64,000 nt of DNA from Microbacter margulisiae (GTDB taxonomy: Bacteria > Bacteroidota > Bacteroidia > Bacteroidales > Paludibacteraceae): assembly GCF_014192515.1 (NCBI RefSeq), contig NZ_JACHYB010000001.1, positions 1,488,001-1,552,000 of the forward strand. The letters run 5' to 3'. The first letter of the stretch is position 1; the number at the start of each line of letters is the position of its first letter. Both the position numbers and the translations under genes were made by a program. This document shows positions 26,094-36,591 of the stretch, piece after piece. The notes below the pieces were generated by a model. That model made no database searches. It was not told where the DNA came from and saw only the letters and a list, made by a program, of their open reading frames with translations.

Positions 26094-26714
26094 CTACACT
26101 ACCAATTTCATTACGGCAGGAGTATAGTCGGTATTGCCGGTTGGCGTAATGGCAGCCACCCTGAAGTAATACCTCGTAGCCACTGTCAGTTCGGTTAACT
26201 GGAGGTAAGCCTGGGTGCTGTATCCCACAATTCCCCATCCTGCTTCCGTCTCGGGCAGTTTGTCCTTTGCCATTTGCCAAATGTAAGCGCGGGATTTGGG
26301 TATTGCCTTTGCCACCAAATTGATAGCACCTGAGTTATCACCGTCAATGGCTGCCAAAACCGGCTTTTGAATGGAAGCGGGCTGTTTTGAAGTGTGAAAC
26401 CCGGCACTCAGGATAGCCGTTTCGTCTCCATTGGCAATCCGGTTGACATAAGCCGCCGTAAGGCGGAGATCATGATCAACTACTTCTTCGGCATCGTACA
26501 TGGCCGAGATTGCCGTATGACTCCCGTCTTTGGATGCCAGGTAGGTAGTATTTAACTTATCCACCTTTGTTTTGGCTTCAGCGAGGAGAACATCAGGTTC
26601 CGGGAACTTGGTATTTCCGGTGAGTTTTTCAACCACGTTGTTGTAAAATGCAATCTTTACCGGAACAGGAAATTTGACAAAATCAAAAAGAGCTCTTACT
26701 TTTTTCATACGCAT
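26094..26714 (-). CDS. Fibronectin type III domain protein, no signal peptide
   Basis: Protein of 206 residues. An N-terminal segment (MRMKKVRALFDFVKFPVPVK to about residue 100) is helical in character with VDKLNTTYLASKDGSHTAIS and VVDHDLRLTAAYVNRIANGD. The C-terminal half (about 112-206) is an FnIII-like sandwich: KPVLAAIDGDNSGAINLVAK, YIWQMAKDKLPETEAGWGIV, and YLQLTELTVATRYYFRVAAI followed by TPTGNTDY. This domain pairing recurs in Bacteroidota as uncharacterised proteins; the function is unknown and export is not evident. It has a strong terminator after it and, about 130 bases upstream of its start, the 41-bp repeat array, so the array could lie in its leader. Confidence 0.7.
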   Translation of the reverse strand: MRMKKVRALFDFVKFPVPVKIAFYNNVVEKLTGNTKFPEPDVLLAEAKTKVDKLNTTYLASKDGSHTAISAMYDAEEVVDHDLRLTAAYVNRIANGDETAILSAGFHTSKQPASIQKPVLAAIDGDNSGAINLVAKAIPKSRAYIWQMAKDKLPETEAGWGIVGYSTQAYLQLTELTVATRYYFRVAAITPTGNTDYTPAVMKLVV

Positions 26715-26842
26715 TGAGATTTAGATGAATAATAATGGATATATAGAAACGCTGTCCTTGTTTTAGCTATGTACTATCTTTCAAAATATAACCTGCATAT
26801 TGTCTGTATAATGTTGTACAGGATGGATTCCTTCTTCTTTCC

Positions 26843-27416
26843 GCGGATAGTATATGGGATAGATCAAATTACATATGCTTTCCGCGGATTCTATATGGAA
26901 TAATGTCTGTTCTTTATGTTATCCGCCGATTCTATAAGGAATAATATGTATTCCTTGTGCTTTTCGCCGATAGTATATGGAATAGATCGAATTACATATG
27001 CTTTCCGCGGATTCTATAAGGAATAAGATATATTCTTTATGCTTTCCGCCGATTCTACAAGGAATAATATGTATTCCTTATGCTTTTCGCCGATAGTATA
27101 TGGAACAGATCAAATTACATATGCTTTCCGCGGATTCTATATGGTATAAGATATATTCTTTATGCTATCCGCCGATTCTATAAGGAATAATATGTATTCC
27201 TTGTGCTTTTCGCCGATAGTATATGGAATAGATCGAATTACATATGCTTTCCGCGGATTCTATAAGGAATAAGATATATTCTTTATGCTTTCCGCGGATT
27301 TCACAGGAAACAGAGCACATTGCTTTTATTTTCCGCCGAATCTATAAGGAATCATGCATATTCCTTCTGTTATCAGCGAATTTCATAAGATACAAGACAT
27401 CTTCCTGCGGTTTGCC
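26843..27416. repeat. Fourteen 41-bp monomers in a 123-bp three-unit higher-order tandem array
   Basis: Monomer starts are at 26843, 26884, 26925, 26966, 27007, 27048, 27089, 27130, 27171, 27212, 27253, 27294, 27335 and 27376, with no spacers. Three monomer types recur in fixed order: A (GCSGATAGTATATGG core), B (GCGGATTCTATAAGG core) and C (GCCGATTCTATAAGG core). The GATAG word of type A therefore recurs exactly every 123 bases (26846, 26969, 27092, 27215). Each monomer is an imperfect palindrome; type C has AAGGAATA and TATTCCTT around a 5-base centre. The last three monomers are degenerate and 27417 marks the loss of pattern. A half-similar unit precedes 26843. There are no CRISPR-like spacers and no coding pattern. 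Confidence 0.92.
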
Positions 27417-30552: not shown

Positions 30553-32580
30553 CTAAAAAGTTATCCCAATAGTTGCACGCCATGAACGTCCCGGCATCGG
30601 ATAGTTTTTGACCACCGCATATTGCTCATTCAGCAGGTTCAATATTTCTCCTTTCACCTTAAGGGCAACGCGGTGTAATTGAAATGAACGCCACACAGCC
30701 ATGCTGCTTTCGCTATATCCCGCCAGAGGAGAATGGCTCAAATCATAACGCATCCCGGAACATAAAATATTATAGGAGACATTGACCCATGGCATCTCAA
30801 TACCGATTGTCCCCGATCCGGATTGCCGGGGAGTGTAGGCAATCTGTTCGTTATAGGTAGAAGTCTCTGCATTAGTCTTGTCTAAAGCGGACTGATAGCT
30901 ATAGCTTCCTTCAAAAGTGGCATGAATAGTACCGGTCAGACGAATTTCGCTACGGCACGACAAATCCATCCCGTGAATCGAAACCAATCCTAAATTCAAC
31001 ATCGACCAAATAAACAGGTTGCCCGAAGGCACTGCTACAATCTTATTAAGCACTCGGTTGTAATATCCATCAAGAGAAACGGATAAATAACCAGCCTGTC
31101 CCGATGTCCAGTACGACGTACCAACATTCAATTGCTGCGCTACCTCAGGCTTCAGACGCGTATTCCCAATACCGGTATAATAGAGTTCATTGAATGTGGG
31201 CATACGGAATGTCTCTTTATAAAACGCCCTCCACTGCCAATGTGCAATCTGAAAAGGTTCTGCACTGACACTAAGCATCGGCGACAAACGGAAATGATGG
31301 GGAGATTCACTTCCCAACGCAACCCGGTCGGCAATATACGTAGATAACAAGGCCGCTTCTGCATGAAAGGAGTTCAGATGAAGCCGCTCTTTCACCGAAG
31401 TATAGGAAGAAAAACGACTTGGCTGTGCAAATTGCGCCAGATTAGCATTCAAATGATTATAGACAAAATCGCTGGCTAAGGAGAGATTCAGCAAGCGACT
31501 CCATGTCCGGGCATATGCTCCCGACAAATCATATTCCTGCTGACGAAAGCGATTATCAAGTCCTCCGGCAGCATTCAAAAAATAAGGGTCCACATAACGC
31601 GAATAGCTGTTTTCGGCTTTTGCTCCCAGGGCGTAACTACTTTGCGTTGATAATATAGATACAAACCGGGCTTGCACAAAATAATCCTGATCATAAAGCC
31701 GTTGCCCCTGGGCTGCATAAGGATTATAGAAAATAACAGCGCCGGGTAATCCGCGAACTCCGTTGGAAGCAAATATCTTGGCAGTCAACCGATGGCACGA
31801 ATCCGGGATATAAAACAAATTGGCTTCTCCGTGGTATAGATGCACATCATCATTCGTCCGTTGAAGATGTTGAATGGAATCCCCGTTATGAATTGTAAAA
31901 GGATAACGGCCATTGGCATATTGGGACTCCAGGAACAGGGTTGAAGAAAGATGACGGCTCAGGCGATTGCCCATCCAAAAAGTAGGATGCTCCCATCCAA
32001 AAGAACCGGTCTGAAAAGCAGCTTCTCCCTTAATGCAATGCAATGAATCCAGATGAGGCCTCTTTGTCACCACCGACAATAATCCTGCCGCAGCGAAAGC
32101 TCTGGCGCTTTCCAGCACATCTTCGTCATCTCCGTTGGCTAATGAGATTTCCTGTACATGGCTCAGAGATAGTTTACCCAAATCGATTTCTCCGTTTTGG
32201 GCGTCACTCATCAATTGTCCGTCATAACTGACCGCCGTATGCGTTGGCCCCAATCCCCGGATTGAAACAGTCTTTAATCCTCCGATGCCTCCGTAATCTT
32301 TTACGGTAACGCCTGCAAAATGTTTAACCACGTCTGACAATTGCAGCGCATCCATACCGGCAATATTGGCGGCATTAAATGTTTGTACAGGTACACTTGT
32401 ATTTGCCAGGTGAGGCAGCGGTATTGCTGTGACGGTGACTTCCTTCATCACATGCACACTGTCTTTTTGCGCCTTTAAAGAGCATATACCAAGCGAAAGG
32501 CACACAAATAACATGATCTTTCTTGTGCTATGATGCAACACAGAAAGCTTACTGCGGTCAAAATGCAAATAAAATGACAT
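30553..32580 (-). CDS. btuB: TonB-dependent cobalamin receptor BtuB
   Basis: Outer-membrane vitamin B12 transporter of 675 residues. A signal peptide (IMLFVCLSLGICSLKAQ) precedes a TonB-box-like KEVTVTAIP, then the plug (ALQLSDVVKHFAGVTVKDYG, TVSIRGLGPTHTAVSYDG), then a 22-strand-type barrel ending GRSWRATIGITF with a terminal Phe. An alternative start at Met23 (32514) would put the signal peptide at the very N-terminus, and both starts are possible. There is no N-terminal carboxypeptidase-like domain, which fits the BtuB class rather than SusC. The assignment rests mainly on the cobalamin riboswitch upstream and the BtuG-like gene downstream. Confidence 0.92.
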   Translation of the reverse strand: MSFYLHFDRSKLSVLHHSTRKIMLFVCLSLGICSLKAQKDSVHVMKEVTVTAIPLPHLANTSVPVQTFNAANIAGMDALQLSDVVKHFAGVTVKDYGGIGGLKTVSIRGLGPTHTAVSYDGQLMSDAQNGEIDLGKLSLSHVQEISLANGDDEDVLESARAFAAAGLLSVVTKRPHLDSLHCIKGEAAFQTGSFGWEHPTFWMGNRLSRHLSSTLFLESQYANGRYPFTIHNGDSIQHLQRTNDDVHLYHGEANLFYIPDSCHRLTAKIFASNGVRGLPGAVIFYNPYAAQGQRLYDQDYFVQARFVSILSTQSSYALGAKAENSYSRYVDPYFLNAAGGLDNRFRQQEYDLSGAYARTWSRLLNLSLASDFVYNHLNANLAQFAQPSRFSSYTSVKERLHLNSFHAEAALLSTYIADRVALGSESPHHFRLSPMLSVSAEPFQIAHWQWRAFYKETFRMPTFNELYYTGIGNTRLKPEVAQQLNVGTSYWTSGQAGYLSVSLDGYYNRVLNKIVAVPSGNLFIWSMLNLGLVSIHGMDLSCRSEIRLTGTIHATFEGSYSYQSALDKTNAETSTYNEQIAYTPRQSGSGTIGIEMPWVNVSYNILCSGMRYDLSHSPLAGYSESSMAVWRSFQLHRVALKVKGEILNLLNEQYAVVKNYPMPGRSWRATIGITF

Positions 32581-32607: not shown

Positions 32608-32697
32608 CTTTCACGGGAATGCAAAATCAAATGGAAGCCTTGCAGATTCTCATTTGGTTAGAAGCTCTTTCCTCGAAAGCTTTACCTGTTTATTTGC

Positions 32698-32870
32698 ATG
32701 GCAGGTCTCCTGACTTATCCTCGTTTCAAACAGCCTTCCCATTTCTCGGAAATAGTGGCTAAAGATTGTGTTGAAACGTTGCATAGGACTTACAGTAGCG
32801 GGACTGTCCAGGAATTTCACCTGATTCCCTTTTCATCGCCCGGCACGAATGCACCGTCGGCGAACCAATG
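32698..32870 (-). ncRNA. Cobalamin riboswitch (B12 element)
   Basis: On the minus strand the canonical B12 box is present (GAATCAGGTGAAATTCC at 32827-32811, then AGTCCCGCTACTGTAAGTCC), preceded by GGTGCATTCGTGCCGGG and ending with AGTCAGGAGACCTGCC at 32715-32700. These are the conserved core and 3' closing elements of cobalamin riboswitches. Binding of adenosyl- or hydroxocobalamin is expected to switch off btuB-btuG. A -7 box at 32877-32884 puts transcription start at about 32870. Confidence 0.95.
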
Positions 32871-32876
32871 CACCGG

Positions 32877-32884
32877 CAAAGGTA
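32877..32884 (-). promoter_or_regulatory. Candidate -7 promoter box of the riboswitch-btuBG transcript
   Basis: Minus-strand TACCTTTG fits TAnnTTTG immediately upstream of the first conserved riboswitch bases. Confidence 0.55.
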
Positions 32885-33091
32885 AGACTAATTTTTGATT
32901 CAGCTAAAAAGATGGAAAGAATATTTTGAGAGATACGTAGACAGCAATGACAATCTGGAAGTTAAAAAAGTTACGGGAAGACGCATTCAATTGAAAATTG
33001 ACAATGAAAATCTGAAGATAATGGAAGATGAGAAGTTAAGGAAGTTATAAGAAGAATTATTGAACTCTGGAAATCAGCAATCCAGTTGATC

Positions 33092-35140: not shown

Positions 35141-36591
35141 CAATGTCATTAAGTTAAGGCCATCAGAAAGTATTTTTATTGTTTTTCAGCAACTTCGGTT
35201 TACCTCTTTTTCTGTATTTGTCAGTATCTCTTTCAAATCTTCTATTTGGTCGTATTGGTATCGTGTGTTTTTTAAACAACGCTTTGAGTTCTGATACTAT
35301 TTCGTTCATATCCTTTTCCGAGAAAAACAGTAAAATTATCCTGTCTTTGAGAAAGCCGTATGATAAATTGCTATTGACTTTGTATTGATATTGATATTTG
35401 GTTGATTCTTTGGCTAATTCATCATTTATGTCTCCAACGATTAAACTCTGAACGTTTGACACAAATAAGGCTGCATAAAAATCCTGCAATATACAATGCT
35501 CTGAATAGCCTGAAAAATGTTCTATTTTTATCTTGTTCTTCAATTCATCATAAAACGTTTCTACTCCCCACCTTAAAAAATACAGTTCTTTAAATAAAGA
35601 GACTGGATATTTTTTTGAATCAAACAAAGAAGTTATCAGTATTTCTATTTCTCCATCAGGTAGTTCAACCCGAACCAACCGAACTTCTTTGAATGCATTC
35701 TTCGAATACGGTTTATCCGACAGTTTTATGTTCTTTCCAGGTTGCATTCGAGCAATAGCTGACTGTAGTCCACTCTGGTAAAATTCCCGGGTGAGGTTAC
35801 TAAAATCAGCTTTAACCCGGATGAGAAAATCTACTCCTTTTTCAAAATGCTCATAAATCAAATTGAAAGAAGGATAACCTCTATCGTAAATAATCAAGTC
35901 GTTAGCTTTTGCAAAAACCAAATGATTCAACGCCAAAACACTCTCTCCAGTTGACAGTGGAGCTAAAACACCATCCAGGACAAACCGATTCAAAACATCG
36001 TACAATACCGATATTCTTGCCTGTACCACTCCTGTTTCAGATTGGTTTTTAGTCCTGCCATAAATGCTTTCCAACTCCTGAGTATCGGGCAAAACCAATC
36101 TTGACCCATCAATAGCCAACAACCTAAATCCATTCCAGAGCTTTATCGATGCATCATTGTCTGTATAAAACTCCTCAATCAAACTATCTGAAAGTGATTT
36201 AAATACTTCAGGTTTTATTTTTTTTCGATACTGTACAAAAGCACTTTTTGTAATACCATTTATCGAAGCACCAGGCATATTGTACTTTATGAAACTAATA
36301 AAGTTAGCTATCTCAACCGAAAGACTTTTAGTGAGAAAATTTATCATAAAGACAATGGTGCTGTGAAATGATTGCTTCCTGTTTCTTGTAAAATCTGTCT
36401 CTAACATTCTGAACTTTAAAACTATTTCCTGCGAAAATACTCTTTTCCTTATCAGTTCCAATATACTTTCCGGCGTTTTTTTTCATGATAATAACTATTT
36501 GATTCTGAAACAAATATACAAAAAATAACTCATATACACAAGCGTTTATTGTTGATAATCAGATAATTATATCGCTAACTTAATGACATTG
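35141..36591 (-). mobile_element. IS4-family insertion sequence, 1451 bp, complete
   Basis: Terminal inverted repeats CAATGTCATTAAGTTA (16 bp, perfect) at both ends. It is flanked by a 10-bp target duplication GGCGCACGCC at 35131-35140 and 36592-36601, the size expected for the IS4 family (10-12 bp). It carries one intact transposase gene. Perfect ends and duplication point to a recent insertion. Confidence 0.93.
35163..36461 (-). CDS. IS4-family DDE transposase
   Basis: Transposase of 432 residues. DDE residues are seen in FRLLAIDGSRLVLPDTQELE (first Asp), LIIYDRGYPSFNLIYEHFEK (second Asp, DRGYP) and LRWGVETFYDELKNKIKIEH (Glu). The last stretch fits the YREK signature of IS4 (Y-2-R-3-E-6-K). 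The N-terminal helical domain is intact and the basic C-terminus (NRRFERDTDKYRKRGKPKLL) is typical. It fills nearly the whole element. Confidence 0.93.
   Translation of the reverse strand: MELIRKRVFSQEIVLKFRMLETDFTRNRKQSFHSTIVFMINFLTKSLSVEIANFISFIKYNMPGASINGITKSAFVQYRKKIKPEVFKSLSDSLIEEFYTDNDASIKLWNGFRLLAIDGSRLVLPDTQELESIYGRTKNQSETGVVQARISVLYDVLNRFVLDGVLAPLSTGESVLALNHLVFAKANDLIIYDRGYPSFNLIYEHFEKGVDFLIRVKADFSNLTREFYQSGLQSAIARMQPGKNIKLSDKPYSKNAFKEVRLVRVELPDGEIEILITSLFDSKKYPVSLFKELYFLRWGVETFYDELKNKIKIEHFSGYSEHCILQDFYAALFVSNVQSLIVGDINDELAKESTKYQYQYKVNSNLSYGFLKDRIILLFFSEKDMNEIVSELKALFKKHTIPIRPNRRFERDTDKYRKRGKPKLLKNNKNTF

Follow-up and report, generated by a model that had tools for sequence, protein, structure and literature searches.

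Helix-phased private DNA arrays upstream of small-protein genes in Bacteroidota-like bacteria

Introduction

What could a satellite-like array of palindromic monomers be doing in front of a small fibronectin type III (FnIII) gene? The locus in question lies in Microbacter margulisiae, in a stretch of 64,000 nucleotides of contig NZ_JACHYB010000001.1 (positions 1,488,001 to 1,552,000 of the forward strand) that we call the window. The initial annotation of this DNA described 41-bp monomers arranged in a 123-bp higher-order array, and offered three ideas for their function: a multi-hairpin leader RNA, a protein-binding array, or a nucleoid/partition site. Here we describe a widespread and apparently undescribed arrangement in Bacteroidota-like bacteria, in which certain small-protein genes are mostly preceded by a private, helix-phased array. 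Each array repeats a unit of about two (or four) helical turns, and the sequence differs at almost every gene.

Results

The array is contiguous, non-coding and private to its genome

Fourteen contiguous 41-bp monomers fill 26843 to 27416 with no indel, as annotated. Written out as 41-mers from 26843, they read ABC ABC ABC AB and then diverged monomers D, E and F; the three classes keep the fixed order reported earlier, but they complete 3 2/3 cycles rather than four. The 11 regular monomers (ABCABCABCAB, 26843..27293, no strand assigned) and their 123-bp higher-order period were recovered by TRF, alignment and self-match. TRF reports a period of 41 at 26827-27366 (13.2 copies) and a period of 123 at 26823-27300 (3.9 copies, 91% matches). 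Offset against itself, the array matches at a fraction of 0.68 of its positions at lag 41, rising to 0.84 at lag 123 and 0.83 at lag 246; one base off the period (lags 40 and 42) the fraction is 0.30, and the best value in 1000 Markov shuffles over lags 10-150 is 0.373. The array has a z of 2.4 at lags 20-22, and is thus of a "42-only" type without a 21-bp basic unit. Stop codons number 4-15 in each of the six frames, and the array is non-coding.

The monomer pattern recurs at two further places in its own genome, where all 17 matches fall at three places, but it is absent from the 60 relatives searched; the window-array sequence was found in 1 of 61 genomes (own plus 60 relatives). One of these places is a second array, at C1:2103699-2104231 (L021:7699-8231), with 13 monomers, one B fewer, and unchanged edges. 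The three diverged edge monomers of the window array (27294..27416, no strand assigned) are also present there, and the gene-side edge, a partial monomer match (ATTCCTTCTTCTTTCC, 26802..26842, no strand assigned), is identical. The second array precedes a paralogue (L049, 76% identical), and the segment that carries it also repeats the neighbouring outer-membrane gene. Across the two arrays, monomer identity is 38.7/41 within classes and 29.2/41 between them. The loss or gain of one B monomer between unchanged edges supports the earlier suggestion of a satellite-like array shaped by unequal exchange. The third place is an orphan, degenerate 102-bp piece of window type (C1:2113698, L021:17630-17800) close to a SusC-like gene; tblastn against L021 turned up no other remnant of the FnIII family. 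A scan of the genome collection returned six single stray matches in unrelated taxa. A dispersed repeat or MITE, REP/BIME included, is ruled out by the lack of dispersed copies in the genome or the collection, and a CRISPR array is ruled out at this locus by contiguous homologous monomers without spacers.

The neighbouring gene (26094..26714, minus strand), which belongs to what we call family 1, encodes a 206-aa protein with a helical-bundle domain (about residues 1-105) and an FnIII domain (about 116-205), both also present in structure models. The helical bundle is acidic, and it matched no DNA-binding fold among Foldseek's 256 best chains, which is no proof of absence. No signal peptide was seen by eye, and named relatives of the protein come from Paludibacter sp. 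and a Bacteroidetes bacterium. The array does lie upstream of this gene, as first noted, and a GntR/FCD regulator gene flanks its other side. In the gap between array and start codon (26715..26842, minus strand), a simple consensus scan of the window locus detected no terminator-like site on either strand. A promoter between array and gene finds no support either: in the array-gene gaps of 78 loci, the Bacteroidota -7 motif occurs 11 times against 9.2 in shuffles, which is no enrichment. Elsewhere in the window, a cobalamin riboswitch (RF00174, 103 bits; 32683-32885, minus strand) lies upstream of a TonB-receptor-like gene (30553-32580, minus strand), and a transposase with a DDE_Tnp_1 domain is encoded at 35163-36461 (minus strand).

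Monomers are dyad-symmetric but do not covary

The imperfect palindrome ascribed to each monomer is real but partial. About monomer position 22, 12 of 19 pairs are Watson-Crick in classes A and B and 10 of 19 in class C, and 69.7% of cells pair in register as opposed to 33-56% when the axis is slid. The proposal that pairing is maintained rather than sequence did not hold up: covariation is absent, with both-side changes in 2 pairs against 4.2 in shuffles, and 499 of 500 shuffles reach 2 such pairs. The only clean class-level swap is at position 13/31 (T-A in A, A-T in C). Any dyad lattice that is periodic must have two axes in each period. The axes within 26843..27293 therefore fall every 20.5 bp, at the CCGCGG/CCGCCG junction and at the centre of AAGGAATA-N5-TATTCCTT, and the array reads roughly alike on either strand.

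Dyad symmetry extends to the related arrays described below. In a rigid-phase test, 50 of 73 arrays are more dyad-symmetric than their column-permuted units (p <= 0.05), though the window array (p 0.18) and the second array (p 0.16) are not significant by this test. A local dyad measure gives z of 4.9 and 4.7 for these two window-type arrays (0/40 permutations); across 23 arrays, of which DUF6261 loci contribute 21, the mean z is 3.1. Dyads are weaker in the arrays of genome G208, discussed below (mean z 1.03, 41% above 1.65). Compensatory changes over the 73 arrays number 297 against 161 +- 9 in shuffles, an excess to which we give no weight because related units inflate the shuffle control, and a further 210 cells are changed on both sides without pairing. 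Single dyad mismatches in these arrays, counted on the gene sense strand, comprise 252 G-T, 335 A-C and 621 others, A-C being commoner than G-T.

Helix-phased arrays precede most family-1 genes

Family 1 is a multicopy family with a helical domain plus FnIII. We sampled 90 of its genes, namely all 34 matches from a first search and 56 of the at least about 80 further full-length matches listed; four with under 400 bp upstream were dropped, leaving 86. The 850 bp upstream of each gene were scanned at any lag from 10 to 130, with a threshold at the 99.5% level of 430 shuffles. Periodicity exceeded this threshold in 75 of the 86, and the best lags were exact multiples of 21 in 71 cases, 123 in two (window type), 85 in one and 23 in one. 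Thus 74 of the 86 genes, spread over 26 of 27 genomes, are preceded by arrays with a period of k x 20.5-21.5 bp, and the array sequences are mostly unrelated; the window locus (L028) is among them, its lag of 123 being 6 x 20.5. Downstream of the genes, periodicity was seen in 15 of 90, at multiples of 21 in six. Twelve genes have no phased upstream array (11 below threshold and L142 with its lag of 23); they include genes of G030 (arrays at 0 of 2 genes), G300 (1 of 3) and G075 (2 of 4). Full-length members at class or phylum distance all pass the threshold (7/7, one weakly at z 5.9), and of five FnIII-only fragments tested, from a set of eight, one shows periodicity, at lag 103 (z 6.2).

The 78 arrays measured have a median length of 305 bp and lie a median of 142 bp (34-598 bp) from the start codon. 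The sequences are mostly private, with random pairs sharing 0.5% of 9-mers. Periods of 20.5, 21, 21.25, 21.5 and 22 bp fit 10.25-11 bp per turn. Since 21 bp is also 7 codons, long open frames cross many arrays by accident; codon constraint is nevertheless excluded because periods of 41, 43, 85 and 22 bp occur, and these, together with the six-frame stops in the window array, rule out a coding repeat. Higher-order periods of 42, 63, 84, 105 and 126 bp recur in related arrays, so that the order initially called unusual in bacteria is common here.

Other protein families have arrays of their own

The sample of the M. margulisiae genome covered 464 kb, window included, or about 13%. It contains two true arrays, in the window and at L162:4632-4867, upstream of a family-1 gene and a family-2 gene, respectively; the latter was found blind, 109 bp upstream of its gene. 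In all, 30 of 535 tiles exceeded the same threshold, mostly with other lags. A CRISPR-like array with a repeat of about 30 bp and a period of 65-67 bp also lies in this genome (L148:1074-5434), and the eight TRF rows of 65-67 bp in L148 were read as CRISPR and left out of the array counts. Downstream of the family-2 gene come endolysin-like and holin-like genes (L162:2689-3730).

Family 2 genes have upstream arrays in 16 of 16 cases, three of them, all from one genome, with 22-bp units; the C-terminal half of the protein is weakly FnIII-like (prob 29) and has no Pfam match. Three more families were each reached from an array of G208. Upstream arrays are present in 20 of 23 DUF6261 genes of relatives, all of the 41-43-bp type, and in 18 of 25 genes of family X (about 220-315 aa), 16 of these 18 with 21-bp units. 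In the negative-control family Y, 4 of 27 genes pass the threshold and 2 show lag 21. These samples were drawn from 24 family-2 matches, 39 DUF6261 matches, 30 family-X loci and 30 family-Y loci, the remainder in each case being partial, too short or without a locus, and the start codons assigned in families X and Y are rough. Strong repeats also lie downstream of the DUF6261 genes L257, L267 and L275 (18-, 42- and 11/67-bp lags, z 14.6-21.8).

In G208 the arrays have spread. All 29 tandem arrays in 400 kb of this genome (TRF score >= 80, period >= 10, length >= 84 bp) have a period of k x 20.5-21.5 bp, and they adjoin many gene kinds in every gene orientation; 7 of the 25 arrays with both neighbours in view sit between convergent genes. 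Gene positions in the censuses of this and the other sampled genomes are plain reading frames, with frames that were at least 30% array masked, and in G208 none of the remaining frames contains an array. The density in L207-L226 is about 7 helically phased arrays per 100 kb, or some 300 genome-wide if even. In G031 (120 kb) and G159 (140 kb), neither of which has a full-length family-1 gene, one short array was found per genome; that of G159 is inside a reading frame, and G031 has four DUF6261 matches. Two 41-bp arrays lie beside other genes in 140 kb of G008.

Array format follows the protein family

Families 1 and 2 together have 81 arrays with a 21-bp unit and 9 that are 42-only, the window array being one of these nine exceptions, compared with 0 and 20 for DUF6261 (Fisher p 2e-15, a nominal value because the genes are related to one another). 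For family 1 alone the counts are 66 with the 21-bp unit and 8 without. Array format follows protein family, and both formats are present in the genome of M. margulisiae. In profile comparisons, in which reversed controls gave at most 0.3, the family-1 helical domain matches the N-terminal part of DUF6261 (prob 90, single-comparison E-value 1.5e-6) and that of family 2 (prob 85), and DUF6261 and family 2 appear unrelated to each other (prob 0.8). One helical domain per 21 bp, with DUF6261 as a two-domain protein on 42-bp units, was rejected as a general rule because the DUF6261 halves match each other weakly (prob 34; second half against the FnIII-family N-terminal domain, prob 27) and because family X has 21-bp units.

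Judged by pairwise comparison, array sequence turns over faster than the proteins in most pairs. L029 and L040 are 95% identical in protein with an array 9-mer similarity of 0.09, and L100 and L101 are 85% identical with 0.02. Arrays are retained in L053/L055 (protein and array both 1.0) and L032/L033 (94%, 0.35), and in L130/L137 array similarity (0.16) exceeds that of the gene DNA (0.07). Mosaic pairs were also found: L028/L039 has N- and C-terminal identities of 78% and 100% with an array similarity of 0.03, L110/L111 has 69%, 97% and 0.01, and the reverse pair L028/L049 has 90%, 63% and 0.82. Linkage alone could suffice for these patterns; a module of helical domain plus array also fits. 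The window gene (26094-26714) and L039 have identical FnIII halves in protein and 78% identical helical halves, a sign of gene conversion.

Neighbourhoods do not point to a mobile element

A mobile cassette or phage part was ruled out: tblastn with the window protein found nothing among plasmid or phage records, and no neighbour of the arrays is conserved within 1-1.5 kb. Four loci, G027 and G029 supplying three of them, have one downstream reading frame in common. In 4 of 20 members there are weak PHROG "major tail protein" matches, and one weak NCBIfam capsid match and viral fold matches were also seen; where shown, they rest on the FnIII part. Related small HTH-like genes lie beyond the array in L116, L140 and L141 (by eye), and the arrays L212:7698-8096 and L222:13814-14173 are flanked by genes that match HTH_26, in one case below the curated cut-off.

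Discussion

How might such arrays work? We see an even chance that the window array is a non-coding platform of helically phased dyad sites that acts as DNA. In this model, dyad-symmetric sites would recur two turns apart, every 20.5 bp here and thus 41 bp per palindromic monomer, and two-turn spacing would place all of them on the same side of the double helix. A protein acting as a dimer or oligomer could then dock side by side along the array, and the nucleoprotein complex might control the downstream gene or mark the locus, as iteron arrays or the F-plasmid centromere do. The most economical partner would be the product of the downstream gene or another protein of the same kind, a candidacy weakened by the acidic helical bundle and by the drift of arrays under nearly constant proteins. 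Alternatively, a general nucleoid protein might read the helical phase rather than the letters. Of the three ideas in the initial annotation, a protein-binding array is the best. A leader RNA is not favoured, given DNA-turn periods in unrelated sequences, no terminator-like site at the window locus and no G-T bias on the sense strand.

A broader version of this idea is possible, though the balance is against it: that several small-protein families (FnIII family 1, family 2, DUF6261 and perhaps family X) each recognize, or are delivered to, their own private array. The family would fix the array format, the helical domain and its array would form a module, and the FnIII half would be shared and exchanged between paralogues. 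In some genomes the arrays would have spread to some hundreds of intergenic sites, a figure extrapolated from the 29 in 400 kb of G208, and there they may organize the chromosome.

Three other accounts of the arrays deserve comparison with a DNA platform. They could be functionless, helically quantized minisatellites, in which replication or repair duplicates two-turn steps, favoured by hairpin-prone sequence, and the products accumulate between genes. Private sequences with fast turnover, copies that differ by whole monomers, and the presence of arrays in every gene orientation in G208 all speak for this account. Against it, the 464-kb M. margulisiae sample has no true arrays other than the two that precede a family-1 and a family-2 gene, the association recurs in 26 of 27 genomes while the control family shows little (4/27), and format depends on the protein family even inside one genome. 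We judge this account unlikely. Selection for phased intrinsic curvature, or for a general architectural protein of the HU/IHF kind with no cognate factor, is less likely again. It would explain why the period is kept while the letters are free, and 23% of 74 arrays are indeed more curved than column-permuted versions (z > 1.65), with 1.4% less curved; yet the mean z is just 0.45, and dyad symmetry and family-specific format are left unexplained. Curvature contributes at most a part.

The account we find least probable is that the array is co-transcribed with its gene and processed to small protein-binding hairpin RNAs, like toxI. The order of repeats followed by gene is the same, the repeats are private to each locus, and the dyads could fold as hairpins. 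Against this, periods follow DNA turns across unrelated sequences, arrays also lie between convergent genes, no covariation was found in the window, and the PADLOC search of 20 members gave no match; the sense-strand mismatch counts and the scan of the window gap for a terminator, both given above, also speak against it.

Some features of these arrays recall known DNA-protein systems. In plasmid iterons, direct repeats spaced at roughly two helical turns adjoin the gene for the protein that binds them. The window array likewise has direct repeats in helical phase, but no Rep gene is adjacent, the units are dyad-symmetric, and there are several arrays per chromosome, here on a chromosomal contig of 2.25 Mb. 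The F-plasmid centromere parS/sopC (ParABS type Ia) has a single sequence in each replicon, with parA and parB alongside. It shares with the window array tandem repeats that contain inverted-repeat motifs, whereas the window array has no parA or parB beside it, is chromosomal, and belongs to a group with many private arrays per genome.

Other systems resemble the arrays in their repeats. Type III toxin-antitoxin loci (ToxIN) carry tandem nucleotide repeats directly upstream of a gene, according to the relevant sections of PMC8860590, as do the window locus and family 1. However, ToxIN has an endoribonuclease toxin (ToxN/CptN/TenpN) and a terminator between repeats and gene, whereas the window locus encodes a protein modelled as a helical bundle plus FnIII and shows no terminator-like site, and the periods here follow DNA turns. 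Borg tandem repeats, as sections of PMC9879509 describe them, are virtually all unique in sequence, fast-evolving and partly intergenic, and in these respects are like the arrays described here. They are perfect copies, 43-65% of them inside ORFs and coding for repeat proteins, with unit lengths of 18, 20, 21 and 36 nt and a 20-nt intergenic unit named; "helical" and "palindrom" do not occur in the main text of that paper. The BrickBuilt minisatellite of P. gingivalis likewise consists of tandem repeats in a Bacteroidales species, but these share one sequence, which sits in a MITE that has terminal inverted repeats, as PMC4596501 reports. Open-access papers, the literature covered here, yielded no account of such arrays or of a link between them and these proteins; the sections of PMC4060949 concerned contain nothing on them, and DUF6261 came up in one paper, which deals with a different topic.

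Dozens of arrays, that of the window among them, are tied to several protein families, a relationship invisible from the window alone. Repeat length is held to the helix turn over more than a hundred arrays of mostly unrelated sequence, and this period rule, together with a format tied to the protein family, points to a DNA-protein machine that has not yet been described. If so, changes of spacing by half a turn should break its function. The arrays also offer a clean bacterial case of satellite-like arrays that arise and diverge at a kept period, and several protein families of unknown function, DUF6261 included, gain a first testable context.
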